A DNA stretch of 64,000 nt from Acidobacteriaceae bacterium (GTDB lineage: Bacteria; Acidobacteriota; Terriglobia; Terriglobales; Acidobacteriaceae), in assembly GCA_003138515.1 (NCBI GenBank), contig PLGG01000012.1, positions 98,061-162,060 on the forward strand, read 5' to 3'. The number at the start of each line of letters is the position of its first letter. The stretch's first letter is position 1. The notes under the pieces were generated by a model. That model did not search any database. It saw only the letters and a program-made list of their open reading frames with translations, and was not told where the DNA came from. The position numbers and the translations under genes are program-made. Positions 1,712 through 64,000 of this stretch are shown here, piece by piece.

Positions 1712-2866
1712 TTAAACCTTGGAGTCTGTAGCGGCTGGGATCGAATCCGCAGCGAGGGATTCGCGGACGCGGGACATGATGGCGAGGTAGTAGGCGAGAT
1801 TGTGGATGGAGTTGAGGGTGGCGGATAGCGGTTCGCCGGCGTTCATAAGATGGCGCAGGTAGGCGCGCGAATAGCGGCGGCAAACGGGGCACTGGCAGGC
1901 GGGGTCGGGCGGGGACTGATCTTCGGCGAATTGTTTGTTTTTGATGTTGAGGCGGCCCTCGCTGGTGAAGAGCAGAGCGTGGCGGGCGGCACGGGTGGGA
2001 AGAACGCAATCCATCATGTCGACTCCCATGCGGGCGTAGAGCTCGATTTCGTCGGGGTAGCCGACACCCATGACGTAGCGCGGTTTGTCTTTGGGCAGGA
2101 GCGGCAAGACTTCAGAGATCATTTCGAGGGTGAGCTCACGCGGCTCGCCGACACTGAGGCCGCCGATGGCGTAGCCGTCGAAATCCATTTCGACGAGGCG
2201 TTTGGCGCATTGGCGGCGGAGATCGCGATACATACCGCCCTGGACGATTCCGAAGAGGGATTGCGTGCGAGGTCCACTTTCGGATTGGGTGGGGTCGCTC
2301 CCCGGTCCCCAAGTGCGAGGGACCGGGGGCACCCGGCGGAAGTGCGAGATCGAGCGCTCGGCCCAGGCCACGGTGAGGCGGAGGCTTTCTTCGGCGCGAT
2401 CACGAGTGGCGGGGTACTCGGTGCACTCGTCGAAGGCCATGACGATGTCTGCGCCGAGAGCAATCTGGACGTCGATGGAGTGCTCGGGGGTGAAGAAGTG
2501 CGAGCTGCCGTCGAGGTGGGAGCGGAATTGGACGCCGTCGGCCGTGACTTTGCGGAGGGCGTTGAGGGAAAAGACCTGGAAGCCGCCGGAGTCAGTGAGG
2601 ATGGCGCGGGGCCAGCTGATGAATCGATGCAGGCCGCCCATGCGGCGGATGGGTTCGTGGCCGGGGCGCAGATAGAGGTGGTAGGTGTTGCCGAGGATGA
2701 TTTCGACGCCGAGGGATTCGAGCGTGTCCTGGGGGACGGCTTTAACAGTGCCCTGCGTGCCGACGGGCATGAAGACGGGGGTTTCGACGGTTTGGTTGGG
2801 CAGGAGAAGGCGGCCGCGGCGACCGCCGGCGGCGGATGCGGCGAGGATCTGAAAGAGCGGGGGCAC
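1712..2866 (-). CDS. tgt: Queuine tRNA-ribosyltransferase (TGT)
   Basis: Bacterial tRNA-guanine transglycosylase of 384 residues, which exchanges guanine-34 of GUN-anticodon tRNAs for preQ1 in queuosine synthesis. ETPVFMPVGTQG starts the TIM barrel. D92 in LTDSGGFQ matches the general base and D286 in MDCVLPTR the nucleophile. The zinc site is C324, C326, C329 and H355. The start MPPLFQILA is typical of the family. Residues about 177-201 (including VPPVPRTWGPG) are not part of the usual protein. In other TGTs the helix ending WAERS is soon followed by a short turn and LFGIVQGG. The extra segment is encoded by a palindromic repeat also found at 23091-23128. All catalytic residues are intact, so the enzyme is probably active. 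No other queuosine gene lies nearby. Confidence 0.96.
   Translation of the reverse strand: MPPLFQILAASAAGGRRGRLLLPNQTVETPVFMPVGTQGTVKAVPQDTLESLGVEIILGNTYHLYLRPGHEPIRRMGGLHRFISWPRAILTDSGGFQVFSLNALRKVTADGVQFRSHLDGSSHFFTPEHSIDVQIALGADIVMAFDECTEYPATRDRAEESLRLTVAWAERSISHFRRVPPVPRTWGPGSDPTQSESGPRTQSLFGIVQGGMYRDLRRQCAKRLVEMDFDGYAIGGLSVGEPRELTLEMISEVLPLLPKDKPRYVMGVGYPDEIELYARMGVDMMDCVLPTRAARHALLFTSEGRLNIKNKQFAEDQSPPDPACQCPVCRRYSRAYLRHLMNAGEPLSATLNSIHNLAYYLAIMSRVRESLAADSIPAATDSKV
2298..2335. repeat. Palindromic repeat inserted in frame in tgt
   Basis: A 38-bp sequence with perfect 10-bp arms, CCCCGGTCCC (2300-2309) and GGGACCGGGG (2319-2328), around a 9-base loop CAAGTGCGA. All 38 bases are identical at 23091-23128, in an intergenic region. 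Read on the minus strand it encodes VPPVPRTWGPG inside TGT. Confidence 0.9.
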
Positions 2867-13817: not shown

Positions 13818-13881
13818 CAGTGGTCAGTGGCCAGTGCGGGCGAGGACGCCCGCACGACAGCCGGCCAGAGGCCGGCGTTAC
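13818..13881. repeat. Heptamers joined to a composite two-hairpin repeat
   Basis: Three 7-bp units (CAGTGGT, CAGTGGC, CAGTGCG) run into a hairpin with perfect 9-bp arms, GTGCGGGCG (13834-13842) and CGCCCGCAC (13847-13855), around an AGGA loop. GACA and a second hairpin, GCCGGC with loop CAGAG, follow. The same hairpin pair, with an AGGA second loop, lies inside scpB at 25579-25627. Its last bases provide the TAA of the neighbouring minus-strand gene (13878-13880). Confidence 0.85.
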
Positions 13882-21315: not shown

Positions 21316-22932
21316 ATGGCTGATCTCGCGACGGTAGTTCATGCACTTCCTGCGCCTCCCCGCCTGATTGACCGCGGGCACCGAAGCAGTTCGAGCCGGG
21401 CAGGCAAATGGATCTTCTTGCTGGCTTTGATCAGCGGGATCGGCTACATCGGCGTTCATGTGGCGCGGGACCTCGATCATGTGGTGGTGACCAGCATCTG
21501 GCCCTACCTGCTGCTGGGGCTGGCGCTCGTGATCGCGCTGGGATTCGAGTTTGTGAACGGCTTTCACGACACGGCAAACGCGGTGGCGACGGTGATCTAC
21601 ACCAATTCGCTGACGCCGACGATCGCGGTAGTGTGGTCGGGGATGTGCAACCTGGCAGGCGTGTTGCTGTCGAGCGGGACGGTGGCGTTCGCGGTGATTA
21701 CGCTGCTGCCGGTGGAGCTGATTCTGAAGGTGAGCTCGGGCGCGGGATTTGCGATGGTGTTTGCGCTGCTGATTGCCGCGATCCTGTGGAACCTGGGCAC
21801 ATGGTGGTTCGGGCTGCCGGCCTCGAGCTCGCACACGATGGTGGGGTCGATTATCGGTGTGGGCCTGGCGAGCCAACTGATGAATGTGCACAGCGGCACG
21901 TCTGGCCTTGACTGGGCGCAGGTGATCAAGGTTCTGAAGGCGCTGCTCATCTCACCGCTGCTGGGATTTGCGCTGGCCGGCGCGCTGATTGTTCTGTCGA
22001 AGCGGTTGATCAAAATTCCGGCGCTCTATCAGGCGCCGAAAGGCAAGGAACCGCCGCCGTGGCCGATTCGCGCGCTGATGGTGCTGACCTGCACGGGCGT
22101 GAGTTTCTTCCATGGATCGAACGACGGGCAGAAGGGCATGGGGCTGATCATGCTGATCCTGATCGGCACGGTGCCGACGGCGTACGCGCTGAACCAGACC
22201 GTAAGCCCCGCGGAGGTGCAGGCGTTCATCGCGTCATCGACGCAGGCAGAGAACATTCTCGACCGGCAAATCGCGCCGGGCACGCCCGATCCGGACCCGC
22301 GCCTTGAGGTGACGCAGTTTGTGAGCACCCGCCGACTGCAGCCGGGGACGATTCTGGCGGTTCGGCAACTGGTGGACGCAGTGGACCGCGAGGTGACGAC
22401 CTACAAGTCGTTCCAGTCGGTTCCGGCCGAGGACCGGAGCAACGTCCGCAACGACATGTACCTGGCGAGTGAGGCGTTGCGGCTGATGGAGAAGGCGGAC
22501 AATCCGGCCTTTACTCCGGCAGAGCGTGCAACGCTGAAGGACTATCGCGGCCAGTTGGACAAGGGCACGAGGTTCATTCCCACCTGGGTAAAGGTGGCGG
22601 TGGCGCTGGCTCTGGGGCTGGGAACCATGGTGGGCTGGAAGCGGGTTGTGGTGACGGTGGGCGAAAAGATCGGCAAAGAACACCTGACCTACGCACAGGG
22701 CGCGAGCGCCGGACTGGTTACGATGGCGACCATCTTCGCCGCAGATACGTGGGGCCTGCCGGTTTCTACGACGCACATTCTGAGCTCGGGCGTGGCGGGT
22801 ACCATGGCAGCAAACGGCAGCGGATTGCGGTGGTCGACGGTGCGCAACATCGCGGCGGGATGGGTGTTCACGCTGCCGGCGGCGGCGCTGCTTTCGGGCA
22901 CGCTTTATTTCCTGTTCCATACATTCGCGTAA
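21316..22932 (+). CDS. PitA-type inorganic phosphate transporter, copy 1
   Basis: A 538-residue low-affinity phosphate/H+ (metal-phosphate) symporter of the inner membrane. Both inverted-repeat signatures of the family are present: GFHDTANAVATVIYT near residue 80 and HGSNDGQKGMGLIML near 265. WWFGLPASSSHTMVG and VSTTHILSSGVAGTM are also as in E. coli PitA. A soluble domain of about 120 residues (about 295-420) separates the two halves, as in PitA. The second gene downstream is a close paralogue that carries about 100 extra residues. The TAA stop lies in the first unit of a 13-bp tandem array. Loss of the linker in this copy or a gain in copy 2 explains the length difference. Confidence 0.93.
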   Translation: MADLATVVHALPAPPRLIDRGHRSSSSRAGKWIFLLALISGIGYIGVHVARDLDHVVVTSIWPYLLLGLALVIALGFEFVNGFHDTANAVATVIYTNSLTPTIAVVWSGMCNLAGVLLSSGTVAFAVITLLPVELILKVSSGAGFAMVFALLIAAILWNLGTWWFGLPASSSHTMVGSIIGVGLASQLMNVHSGTSGLDWAQVIKVLKALLISPLLGFALAGALIVLSKRLIKIPALYQAPKGKEPPPWPIRALMVLTCTGVSFFHGSNDGQKGMGLIMLILIGTVPTAYALNQTVSPAEVQAFIASSTQAENILDRQIAPGTPDPDPRLEVTQFVSTRRLQPGTILAVRQLVDAVDREVTTYKSFQSVPAEDRSNVRNDMYLASEALRLMEKADNPAFTPAERATLKDYRGQLDKGTRFIPTWVKVAVALALGLGTMVGWKRVVVTVGEKIGKEHLTYAQGASAGLVTMATIFAADTWGLPVSTTHILSSGVAGTMAANGSGLRWSTVRNIAAGWVFTLPAAALLSGTLYFLFHTFA

Positions 22933-23003
22933 GATTGGCGCGTAAGATTGGCGCGTAAGATTGGCGCGTAAGATTGGCGCGTAAGATTGGCGCGTAAGAT
23001 TCG
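22926..23003. repeat. Six tandem 13-bp units after pit copy 1
   Basis: Five exact copies of CGCGTAAGATTGG followed by one ending TTCG, directly head to tail. The first unit contains the stop codon of the first pit gene. There are no spacers, so it is not a CRISPR array. Confidence 0.97.
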
Positions 23004-23272
23004 GGCATCAAGTTTGGAAGGGCGTCCGGCGAGGCTGCGCGGAGATTGAGTCGGTGCGGACGGTCCGGCACGAAGACTGGCCTTAGCTCCCTCCCCGGTC
23101 CCCAAGTGCGAGGGACCGGGGGCACCCGCGCACACGCGGCGCGGCGAGCGCGAGCGGAAAATTCAACGGCCATTTACGCGCGGTTCACAAAAGTCCGATA
23201 TCCCTGAGGGGTTCGGAGTTTTCCACCCCCGCCGGCTCCGACCCAACAAAAAATCCAATCCGGAGTTCGACG
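22933..23272. other. Interval between pit genes: tandem array and palindromic repeat
   Basis: 340 bp without a gene. It holds the 13-bp array, then the 38-bp palindromic repeat at 23091-23128, then a leader with GGAG ahead of the second pit ATG. No promoter was recognised. Open frames across it come only from the repeats. Confidence 0.6.
23091..23128. repeat. Intergenic copy of the tgt palindromic repeat
   Basis: Identical over 38 bp to 2298-2335 inside tgt, with CCCCGGTCCC and GGGACCGGGG arms at 23093-23102 and 23112-23121. Flanking bases differ, which marks the ends of the shared unit. Confidence 0.9.
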
Positions 23273-25180
23273 ATGGCCGATCTGGCTACGACTGTAGAAG
23301 TCCCGCCCGCAGGCGGGTCTCTTCTTGACCGCAAGATGAAGAAAAGTTCCGCCTGGGTGAGCGGCGCAGTAGTCGGGATCGCGCTGCTTGGCGGCCTCGG
23401 TTACATCGGCTTCCACGTGCAGCAGGACCTGAGCAACGTAGTTGTCGCCAGCGTGTGGCCTTATGTGCTGCTGGGCGTGGCGCTGCTGATCGCGCTGGGA
23501 TTCGAGTTCGTGAACGGATTCCACGACACGGCGAATGCCGTGGCGACGGTGATCTACACGCACTCGCTCGATCCAAACATTGCGGTGGTGTGGTCGGGGC
23601 TGTGCAACCTGGCCGGGGTACTGGTTTCGAGCGGCGCTGTGGCGTTCAGCGTAATTACGCTGCTCCCGGTCGAGCTGATCTTGCAGGTGAGTTACGGCGC
23701 GGGATTTGCAATGGTGTTCGCATTGCTGATTGCGGCCATTATCTGGAACCTGAGCACGTGGTGGTTTGGGCTGCCGGCATCAAGCTCGCACACGATGGTG
23801 GGGTCGATCATCGGCGTGGGCGTGGCGAACCAATTGATGAGCGTGCACTCCGGGACTTCGGGCGTGGACTGGGGACAAGCTACCAAGGTGTTCCAGGTGC
23901 TGCTCATCTCGCCCATTATCGGCTTCTGCGCCGCCGGTCTGCTGCTGTTGGTTTCCAAGCTGTTTATCCTGACCAAATGGGCCAAAAGTTTTGCCCACCT
24001 CTTCGACGCGAACCACAGGAAGCCGCTTTGGCTGATTCCGACGGTCGCAGTTACAGGAATCCCTGGAGCCTACATTTTCTTGTGGGTCGCTCCCATGGTT
24101 TTCGGTCTCTTCGGCACTCCGGGAATGGCCGTATGGCAGCCCATCAAATACTTCACGTCCTGGAATCCGCCGATGGGTCTGATCGCCACGATGGTGCTGG
24201 TGGGCATCGCCGGCTGGTACCTGGTCGCCGTGTTCGCCAGGATCGTGATTGAGAACGCCGATGTTCTGTTTACCTCGCCCAAGGGCACCACTCCTCCGCC
24301 GTGGCCGATCAGGGCGCTGCTTATTTTCACCTGTTCAGGCGTGAGCTTTGCGCACGGATCGAACGACGGACAAAAGGGCATGGGGCTGATCATGCTGATC
24401 CTGATCGGCACGGTGCCGACGGCGTATGCGCTGAACCACGCGGTGACGGCGAAGGACGTGCAGGCGTTTGTTGCGTCTTCGCAGGCAGCCGACGAGGTGA
24501 TCAACAAGCATGCGGATCAGAGTGCCGTGATGGGCGCCGACGCAAGAGCGACGGTGACCCAATACATCGCCAGCAAGCAACTGCAGCCGGACACGATGCT
24601 CGCGCTGCGGGAGCTGGTGAACGATTTGAGCAACGAAGTGGCGCTCTACAAGGAGTACAAGGCGGTTCCGGCGAACCAGCAGACCAACGTGCGCAACGAC
24701 ATGTACGTGGCCAGCGAAGCGATCCGGCTGATGCTGAAGAGCAAGAACCCGCAGTTCACCACGGATGAGAGCGCAGCGCTGACGAAGTACGAGGGCCAGG
24801 TGAACAAGGCGACGAAGTTCATTCCCGGATGGGTGAAGGTTGCGGTGGCGCTGGCGCTGGGACTGGGCACCATGGTGGGCTGGAAGCGCATTGTGGTGAC
24901 GGTGGGCGAGAAGATCGGCAAGGAACATCTGACCTATGCGCAGGGAGCGTGCGCGGAGCTGGTGGCGATGGGAACGATCATGGCCGCGGACAACTTCGGG
25001 CTGCCGGTGTCGACGACGCACGTGCTGAACTCGGGCGTGGCGGGAACGATGGCGGCGAACAAGAGCGGCTTGCAGTTCTCGACGATTCGCAATATTGCGG
25101 CGGCGTGGGTGTTCACGCTGCCGGTAGCGGCATTGCTTTCAGGATCGCTGTTCTGGCTGTTCCGGCAATTGTCGCTTTAA
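23273..25180 (+). CDS. PitA-type inorganic phosphate transporter, copy 2
   Basis: A 635-residue paralogue of the preceding transporter. GFHDTANAVATVIYT, LPASSSHTMVG, HGSNDGQKGMG and VSTTHVLNSGVAGTM are all kept. Compared with copy 1 it has about 100 extra residues at about 230-330 (from TKWAKSFAHLFDANH to VLFTSPKGTT), including two or three extra hydrophobic helices. E. coli PitA lacks this block, so it is an insertion or the acidobacterial full-length form. GGAG stands about eleven bases before ATG 23273. A strong terminator follows at 25202. The two copies could differ in affinity or partner ion. Confidence 0.93.
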   Translation: MADLATTVEVPPAGGSLLDRKMKKSSAWVSGAVVGIALLGGLGYIGFHVQQDLSNVVVASVWPYVLLGVALLIALGFEFVNGFHDTANAVATVIYTHSLDPNIAVVWSGLCNLAGVLVSSGAVAFSVITLLPVELILQVSYGAGFAMVFALLIAAIIWNLSTWWFGLPASSSHTMVGSIIGVGVANQLMSVHSGTSGVDWGQATKVFQVLLISPIIGFCAAGLLLLVSKLFILTKWAKSFAHLFDANHRKPLWLIPTVAVTGIPGAYIFLWVAPMVFGLFGTPGMAVWQPIKYFTSWNPPMGLIATMVLVGIAGWYLVAVFARIVIENADVLFTSPKGTTPPPWPIRALLIFTCSGVSFAHGSNDGQKGMGLIMLILIGTVPTAYALNHAVTAKDVQAFVASSQAADEVINKHADQSAVMGADARATVTQYIASKQLQPDTMLALRELVNDLSNEVALYKEYKAVPANQQTNVRNDMYVASEAIRLMLKSKNPQFTTDESAALTKYEGQVNKATKFIPGWVKVAVALALGLGTMVGWKRIVVTVGEKIGKEHLTYAQGACAELVAMGTIMAADNFGLPVSTTHVLNSGVAGTMAANKSGLQFSTIRNIAAAWVFTLPVAALLSGSLFWLFRQLSL

Positions 25181-25313: not shown

Positions 25314-26348
25314 ATGAGCCTGAAATCCAAGCTGGAAGCAGTAATTTATGCCGCCGAGGAGCCGGTGACGCTGGCGCAGTTGTCCGCGCTGTTTGCCGAT
25401 GAGGCGATGGAGTGGAAGGCAGAGCAGGAAGCGGCGGCCGCGGCGCAGATTGCGGAGCCGGGCGCGGAGGGCGGAGCGCTGCCGCAGCTGAACGAGGCGT
25501 TTCCGTATCTGGGGCTGGAGCCGGTGGGAGAGGGCGAAGCGGCGACTGCGGGAGCAAGCACGGAAGGCGGCGAAAGCAGTGCGGGCGAGGACGCCCGCAC
25601 GACAGCCGGCGAGGACGCCGGCGCTACAGTGGCAGCGGTGGTCGCGAAAGGCGCAACTGGCGAGGAAGAAGCTGGTGCAGACGATGAAGCTACGGCCGAA
25701 GCGGAGGCAAAGCGCGCGGCGAAGTTGCGCGAGCGCGAGGCACGCGATGCGATCAAGCAGGTTCTGGACGAGCTGGTTGCGGAGTATGCGGCCGATGGAC
25801 GGGGAATCGAGATTCGCGAGATTGCCGGCGGGTACCGGATGGGAACCAAGCCGCAGTGCCACGACGCAGTGCGGTTGTTTGTGAAGAGCTTGAAGCCGCC
25901 GCTGAAGCTGTCGTTGCCGGCGCTCGAGACGCTGGCGGTAATCGCATACAAGCAGCCGGTGACCGCGCCGGAGGTGAACGAGATTCGAGGCGTGGATTCG
26001 TCGGGGGTGTTCGGTTCGCTGCTGGCGCGCAAGCTGATCGTGACGGCGGGGCGCAAGCCGGTGGTGGGGCGGCCTATTCTCTACAAGACGACGCGGGAGT
26101 TCCTGCTGCGCTTCGGGCTGAAAGATGTGACGGAGCTGCCGTCAATGGAAGAGTTCGAGAAGATGGCGGCGAGCGAGCTGGACGAAGCGATGCTGGCTGC
26201 CGGAGAAGAGACGGCTCAAGAGGCGGCAGAGTTCAATCCGGATTTGAGCGCGGAGACGGAAGAGGCGGCGAGCGAAGCACCAGCAGAAGAAGCGCCAGCG
26301 GAAACAGAAGGAAACACCCCACAGGCCGCGCCAAGCGGCGCAGAGTAA
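25314..26348 (+). CDS. scpB: ScpB, SMC-kleisin chromosome segregation subunit
   Basis: A 344-residue ScpB, the winged-helix partner of ScpA in the SMC condensin complex. MSLKSKLEAVIYAAEEPVTLAQL is the normal N-terminus (shown to residue 23 in parts), and the core returns at IKQVLDELVAEYAADGRG. IREIAGGYRM, LPALETLAVIAYKQPVT and EINEIRG-type VNEIRGVDSSGVF identify the family. Two unusual parts: an Ala/Glu-rich insert of about 100 residues at 33-140 splits the first winged helix, and part of it (SSAGEDARTTAGEDAGAT) comes from a palindromic repeat. The C-terminal 50 residues are acidic. scpA is not next to it. rluB follows, as in many genomes. Confidence 0.93.
   Translation: MSLKSKLEAVIYAAEEPVTLAQLSALFADEAMEWKAEQEAAAAAQIAEPGAEGGALPQLNEAFPYLGLEPVGEGEAATAGASTEGGESSAGEDARTTAGEDAGATVAAVVAKGATGEEEAGADDEATAEAEAKRAAKLREREARDAIKQVLDELVAEYAADGRGIEIREIAGGYRMGTKPQCHDAVRLFVKSLKPPLKLSLPALETLAVIAYKQPVTAPEVNEIRGVDSSGVFGSLLARKLIVTAGRKPVVGRPILYKTTREFLLRFGLKDVTELPSMEEFEKMAASELDEAMLAAGEETAQEAAEFNPDLSAETEEAASEAPAEEAPAETEGNTPQAAPSGAE
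25579..25627. repeat. Composite two-hairpin repeat inserted in frame in scpB
   Basis: Hairpin 1 has arms GTGCGGGCG (25579-25587) and CGCCCGCAC (25592-25600) with an AGGA loop. Hairpin 2 has arms GCCGGCG (25605-25611) and CGCCGGC (25616-25622), also with an AGGA loop, then GCTAC. Related copies lie at 1-23 and 13834-13881. It is read in frame in scpB. Confidence 0.9.

Positions 26349-62868: not shown

Positions 62869-64000
<1,132 letters not shown>

Follow-up and report, generated by a model that had tools for sequence, protein, structure and literature searches.

The window, by which we mean the whole stretch of 64,000 nucleotides analysed here, carries on its minus strand at 1712-2866 an ORF of 384 amino acids for queuine tRNA-ribosyltransferase (tgt, Pfam: PF01702, E 4.8e-152). 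Inside this gene lies a 38-bp sequence, CTCCCCGGTCCCCAAGTGCGAGGGACCGGGGGCACCCG, at 2298-2335 of the plus strand, and an identical intergenic copy is found at 23091-23128, also on the plus strand. The 38-mer can be drawn as a hairpin with a perfect 10-bp stem (CCCCGGTCCC and GGGACCGGGG) and a 9-nt loop (CAAGTGCGA), and a conserved GCACCC follows it. In the sequence of the tgt copy, the left arm occupies 2300-2309 and the right arm 2319-2328, both given on the plus strand. The initial annotation had claimed perfect 10-bp arms and identity between a coding and a non-coding copy. Both hold: the arms are perfectly complementary, the identity is exact at both sites, and it forms part of more than a two-copy match.

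Searching the window with the first 37 bases and up to three mismatches returned these two places only, and two matches were reached in none of 100 dinucleotide-preserving shuffles. With the repeat finder, the pair 2298-2335 and 23091-23128 reaches a length of 41 nt (98%). Contig C56 has a third copy, which is equal in 37 out of 38 bases and has the stem and loop common to both window copies. We call R1 the dispersed palindrome family that contains the 38-mer. The covariance model of this family matches copy 1 at window positions 2287-2338 (G000:C16:100347-100398, E 1.9e-12) and copy 2 at 23080-23131 (G000:C16:121140-121191, E 1.7e-11). A chance origin of the pair is excluded by the shuffles and by the copy number, and a known RNA family by the Rfam search, which gave no match within the window at gathering score.

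There are also other repeats in the window. One palindrome is present twice, at 1-31 and at 25605-25635 (31 nt, 90% alike); on the minus strand it reads GTAGCGCCGGCGTCCTCGCCGGC, and it is a GTAG-headed REP-like element. A dispersed repeat of 37 nt, starting with CAGTGCGGGCGAGGACGCCCGCACGACAGCCGG, occurs at 13832-13868 and 25577-25613 (97% alike), and its second copy adjoins the GTAG-type element. At 21434-24852 a gene is present as two diverged tandem copies, with three blocks that are 71-79% alike, and R1 copy 2 is situated between them; about six head-to-tail 13-bp units (CGCGTAAGATTGG) stand at 22926-23003, where the gene preceding R1 copy 2 ends. Around 63230-63275 there is an A+T-rich inverted repeat ending in ATGGGGCACCC, which has the GGGGCACCC end of R1 and not its stem.

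The tgt gene reads copy 1 reversed, as residues R178-S190 (RVPPVPRTWGPGS), and LFGIVQGG starts at residue 204. The tgt frame is genuine, and the insert lies, as first annotated, between WAERS and LFGIVQGG. In the AlphaFold2 model (mean pLDDT 90.6) the insert belongs to a loop of residues 179-202, encoded at 2261-2332 of the minus strand. The pLDDT is 64 for residues 181-190 and 60 for residues 191-200, low values that are expected anyway because the alignment lacked relatives bearing the insert. A structural model had been proposed to see whether the loop lies away from tRNA and the dimer face. The prediction goes as far as placing the insert in this low-confidence loop, which is preceded by helix 155-178 and followed by strand 203-208, the strand leading into VQGG. 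Loops that precede a strand sit on the face of the TGT barrel opposite the catalytic side. Aligned to 1ozm, the best-matching solved TGT, which has no insert, the inserted residues replace a short loop ahead of LFGIQQGS.

The R1 family within and beyond the own genome

The genome to which the window belongs (G000) is a draft of 4.23 Mb in 90 contigs. BLASTN found 25 places in it. We then used a covariance model built on an alignment of 22 copies, all from this genome; three loci (one with the loop turned round, one long and one short) were kept outside the alignment, and the second copy on contig C49, which the search pattern missed, is not part of it. The model returned 54 rows at E<=0.5, including three that give a place a second time on its opposite strand, and 43 rows at E<=0.001, which correspond to 42 places. 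The genome-wide search that had been suggested for the 38-mer thus gives about 40 R1 places, and the restriction of the 38-mer to two places, named at the outset as an observation against an inserted repeat, was not found: BLASTN alone lists 25 places and the model 42 at E<=0.001. In the copy at G000:C20:2300-2351 the loop is reversed with respect to the outer arms, which looks like an in-place flip of the hairpin.

Around the 38-bp core, most copies of R1 measure about 40-50 bp in total, and some matches extend to about 94 bp with a second hairpin. Stem pair 17-39 is AU in nine of the 22 copies, CG in nine, UA in two and GC in one. Over the whole structure 14 cells are altered on both sides compared to 5.0 in shuffles, where the slid controls are a weaker covariation test than usual, because the copies come from one genome and the structure is drawn from their own consensus. 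As judged from this alignment, the R1 hairpin is maintained through paired, co-varying changes. The outer GTGC/GCAC helix is formed in 72.7% of the cells. The foot of the consensus reads GTGC..., and GGGTGCC... on the opposite strand. The GT(A/G)G or CGTC head is absent from the R1 consensus; at the place of the head, GTAG occurs in none of the 22 aligned copies and GTGG in one (L042), three bases ahead of the stem. Of the six frames read off the consensus, five are open, the exception being one reverse frame.

Across genomes, R1 matches are present in all 25 same-genus genomes, with 2 to 142 matches each at E<=0.001 when the best 143 candidates per genome were scored. In another family of the order one out of 14 genomes has R1, and outside the order none of two. 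Among 200 genomes drawn from the order, 71 have R1 at E<=1e-4, of which 70 belong to the own family.

Y1 transposases next to R1 copies

Y1_Tnp (Pfam: PF01797) genes were found in 24 out of the 25 genus genomes. We examined 92 Y1 loci with about 1.5 kb per side where the contig allowed, leaving out three very short Y1 matches. R1 is present at E<=0.01 in 15 of them. In 278,394 bases this gives 30 matches, where the genus density predicts about 2.9; for that density the per-genome match counts were summed by hand with the best 143 candidates per genome scored. An ORF bearing the motif was available for the tree in 64 of the 92 loci, and the remaining 28 held no R1 match.

In one clade of this tree (SH-aLRT 95) each of the ten members has an R1 copy no more than about 200 bp from the transposase core; the clade was delimited after the R1 labels were known, and the distances were measured to the trimmed core instead of the gene ends. 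Seven of the ten members (L210, L255, L257, L259, L260, L263 and L266) are enclosed by an inverted R1 pair, L213 has R1 on both sides in the same orientation, and L268 and L270 have it on one side. In neighbouring clades, R1 lies at most 500 bp from four further Y1 genes of the 64.

RAYT genes flanked by inverted REP copies are described in PMC2817692, and the R1-flanked clade in the sister species resembles this arrangement (7 of 10 members). R1 is also similar to REPs as a short dispersed palindrome, with a 38-bp core at 42 places (E<=0.001) compared to 20-40 bp. The REPs of the GTAG and CGTC superfamilies carry a GT(A/G)G or CGTC head, whereas the R1 consensus has neither. We consider it quite probable that R1, the family to which the 38-mer belongs, is of the REP type and spreads as a non-autonomous hairpin, moved most likely by a RAYT-type Y1 transposase from the R1-flanked clade. 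Such a RAYT would move R1 in trans.

In contrast to REP/RAYT systems, the own genome has no flanked Y1 locus. All four of its Y1 genes fall outside the R1-flanked clade and none has R1 nearby, so they are not supported as the mover, and R1 is either orphaned here or has its RAYT in the unassembled part. The R1 copies of the own genome may then be remnants, or may have been moved by a transposase since lost or unassembled.

Acidobacterial Y1 transposase genes with flanking repeats are also known from Koribacter: the TIRYT units, as outlined in PMC3733652, combine a tyrosine transposase with long terminal inverted repeats. The presence of flanking repeats is shared with the R1 clade, but the repeat R1 is short and self-complementary. 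MITEs have terminal inverted repeats, a length of 70-300 bp and a target-site duplication. R1 copies are mostly about 40-50 bp, some matches span about 94 bp, and by eye no clear duplication is seen at the tgt copies.

R1 in the loops of tgt, mnmG and other genes

The tgt query found matches in 75 of the 80 genus genomes, 68 of which gave a readable stretch running from AWA..RS to FGIVQGG; in the other seven the matches are partial or weak (G006, G076, G088 and G092) or unreadable through (G055, G053 and G060). This stretch has exactly 37 residues in 58 of the 68 genomes. The ten other lengths are 45 in G000, 46 in G001, 52 in G004, 41 in G005, 64 in G013, 83 in G019, 74 in G041, 70 in G050, 50 in G077 and 45 in G078. 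An empty site in the tgt of sister species, anticipated at the start, thus exists as a shorter stretch of one length in 58 of the 68. The possibility that the tgt of distant genera has the same residues is not borne out either: the other-genus tgt sequences that were read have short loops and no R1-like peptide. The nearest named tgt among the listed records, which may leave out the closest ones, are those of Acidobacterium sp. S8 and an Acidobacteriaceae MAG (both 70%), which, with the distribution of R1, makes an acidobacterium the most likely host. With one shorter length in 58 of 68 stretches, short loops in other genera and no insert in 1ozm, the element is not an ancestral part of TGT.

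R1 is found inside the tgt loop in seven of the 68 genomes. The matches have E-values of 3.3e-6 or better in G000, G013, G019 and G004, 3e-5 in G050, 0.004 in G001 and a weak 0.083 in G077. All seven carriers read VPx[V/I/A], in one frame, with the gene opposite to the R1 orientation. The insertion points vary by several codons, and the carriers hold different R1 subtypes. The loop of G019 contains a GTAG-tagged palindrome as well. Inserts that R1 does not match are present in the loops of L323 (G041, 37 extra residues), L291 (G078), L080 (G005) and L324 (G055, a disturbed frame with Ns). The initial annotation took the sequence to be kept as DNA and not as protein. The first half stands insofar as a dispersed DNA repeat with a co-varying hairpin entered tgt; the second half does not follow, since identity alone is no proof that the protein is unconstrained.

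On the tgt tree built without the loop, the R1 label needs six changes (gains or losses), five of them forced by well-supported branches, and is unclustered (77 of 500 shuffles are as low); this is a single-gene tree, which may differ from the species tree, and 23 of its 65 inner branches are open. G000 and G013 are sisters (support 100/99), and their tgt DNA is identical at 939 of 1068 positions outside the loop. The R1 core of G013 is almost equal to that of G000 and is placed after an EVPW segment kept in most relatives. The G000 loop is without the AHxxEVPW segment, so its junction is not a clean insertion. The two loops may go back to a single insertion with a later deletion, or to two separate ones; the latter are possible because the upstream flanks do not align, while the near-equal core in the same loop of both suggests that the insertion may predate their split. 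The claim of a probably recent insertion is weakened by this shared core, and one limited to the own genome is unsupported because of G013.

A single old insertion per loop, combined with later loss from most species or with tgt or mnmG segments being exchanged between species, would account for the constant orientation and frame in each gene and for the nearly identical core in these two sisters. We consider it unlikely: it is opposed by the six changes on the tree with five forced, by the unclustered label and by the different subtypes and insertion points of the carriers, and the equal length of 58 of the 68 stretches is hardly expected from repeated precise loss.

Besides tgt, R1 copies in the own genome lie in several other genes. 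For the 42 places, taken with a larger locus, the longest ORF reaches at least 90 bases past the repeat on both sides in 28. These represent 26 distinct ORFs, of which 20 were searched in Pfam; the six outside the search are four short ones (130-144 aa), one of 183 aa and one on the strand opposite tgt. Nine out of the 20 R1-spanning ORFs had no Pfam match. R1 lies in frame and is either flanked on both sides or spanned by Pfam matches in tgt, mnmG, a RimO-like methylthiotransferase (UPF0004, Radical_SAM and TRAM_2), an ABC ATPase and an AMP-binding enzyme. The match is downstream of R1 alone in an S9 peptidase and in a UDG-family protein with two R1 copies, and below the cut-off in a PTPS-related membrane protein. 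Across these eight genes, with tgt counted, R1 is reversed in six and forward in two (the ABC ATPase and the AMP-binding enzyme). In hisB (L002) R1 is ahead of the domain and may be extragenic, in L331 and L329 the domains are far from R1, and the match of L006 is below the cut-off; like the nine ORFs with no match, these four are not counted as genes with an R1 insertion.

The own mnmG (L348) has two adjacent in-frame R1 copies, one long and one short, at G000:C16:162613-162766, which is 553-706 bases past the window end. The mnmG loop was read in 50 of the 73 genomes with a match, one species each, and R1 is present in 12 of these 50, each time oriented against the gene and read in the GAPG-type frame, with L395 reaching an E-value of only 0.027. 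Eleven carriers (ten clear and L395, which is weak) are among the first 30 loci and one among the next 20, and the carrier fraction is inflated because the first 30 loci are ranked by similarity to a query that holds R1. Other repeat-like peptides occur in the same loop, for example GExENSPGxNPG in four of the 50. In the RimO-like gene, R1 is at the same place in G000 and G047, that is in two of 30 loci, of which the peptides were read for 23, and both copies are opposite to the gene. Matches to other RimO-like genes (e.g. in G086, G009 and G088) break near query residue 175, with frames of 630-699 aa compared to 529; these long frames suggest other large in-frame inserts.

By chance, 0.078 R1 copies are expected in the tgt stretch at the genus density and 0.78 with all copies confined to 10% of the genome (an assumed figure), compared to the seven carriers, although both expectations ignore that tgt and mnmG were examined because the own genome carries a copy there. 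This excess would fit an insertion that is itself concentrated, with an enzyme preferring a short motif or an exposed single-stranded stretch in the tgt and mnmG loop segments. The orientation points in the same direction, as R1 is opposite to the gene in all seven tgt, all 12 mnmG and both RimO-like carriers, in one frame per gene. On the other hand, R1 is missing from 61 of the 68 tgt and 38 of the 50 mnmG loops read, the tgt insertion points are several codons apart, no target motif or target duplication was identified, and the choice of genes and the 10% assumption limit the comparison. The other repeat-like peptides in the mnmG loop fit tolerance. Aimed insertion is thus a live rival, to which we give a rather low probability, and tolerance by the loop alone is the simplest account. 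The tgt copies would persist because a peptide rich in Pro and Gly, about 13-16 residues long, is tolerated in a surface loop; insertions into coding sequence are presumably lost in most cases, and a few permissive loops keep theirs.

TGT and MnmG both act on tRNA position 34, the wobble position. The recurrence of R1 in two enzymes of this position, and a stem kept by paired changes family-wide, could also mean that the hairpin is retained for a function within the gene, such as stabilising the mRNA, setting the speed of translation or supplying a useful loop peptide. We regard this as very improbable, given that the same 61 tgt and 38 mnmG loops do without R1, that the tgt matches of G001 and G077 reach only the E-values of 0.004 and 0.083, yet the frame stays open, and that upkeep of the stem is equally expected if the transposase needs the hairpin.

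Intragenic repeats and loop lengthening

REPs inside genes are already in print. In-frame REPs and RPEs in functional genes, including tRNA pseudouridine synthase genes, and palindromes at approximately the same recB site in two Xanthomonas species are reported in PMC3733652. The Rickettsia palindromic element (RPE), as described there, is like R1 in lying in frame inside functional ORFs, a likeness that does not establish kinship. Unlike these intragenic REPs and RPEs, R1 sits in the same tgt or mnmG loop in many species of one genus, while the sites of relatives are empty. Among the literature matches listed, for which the coverage of subscription papers is thin, none concerned REPs in tgt or mnmG. 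The present comparison adds a headless REP family with its linked RAYT clade, and an in-frame landing that recurs in one loop each of tgt and mnmG, in constant frame and orientation, among separate lineages of one genus.

If the mnmG and tgt loops were preferred landing strips, with one orientation and frame, R1 and its RAYT would act as a recurrent, frame-compatible agent of loop lengthening for wobble-modifying enzymes, an idea we hold to be improbable. With tolerant loops as the preferred reading, the genus still offers a natural experiment: among 80 genomes searched, the same hairpin is found in the TGT loop of several separate lineages, and likewise in MnmG, with empty sites in relatives. 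With R1 in tgt and mnmG one can ask directly whether REPs insert at random, with selection as the filter, or in an aimed way, and with the R1 system as a whole one can ask how frequently bacteria gain new protein sequence from short mobile DNA.
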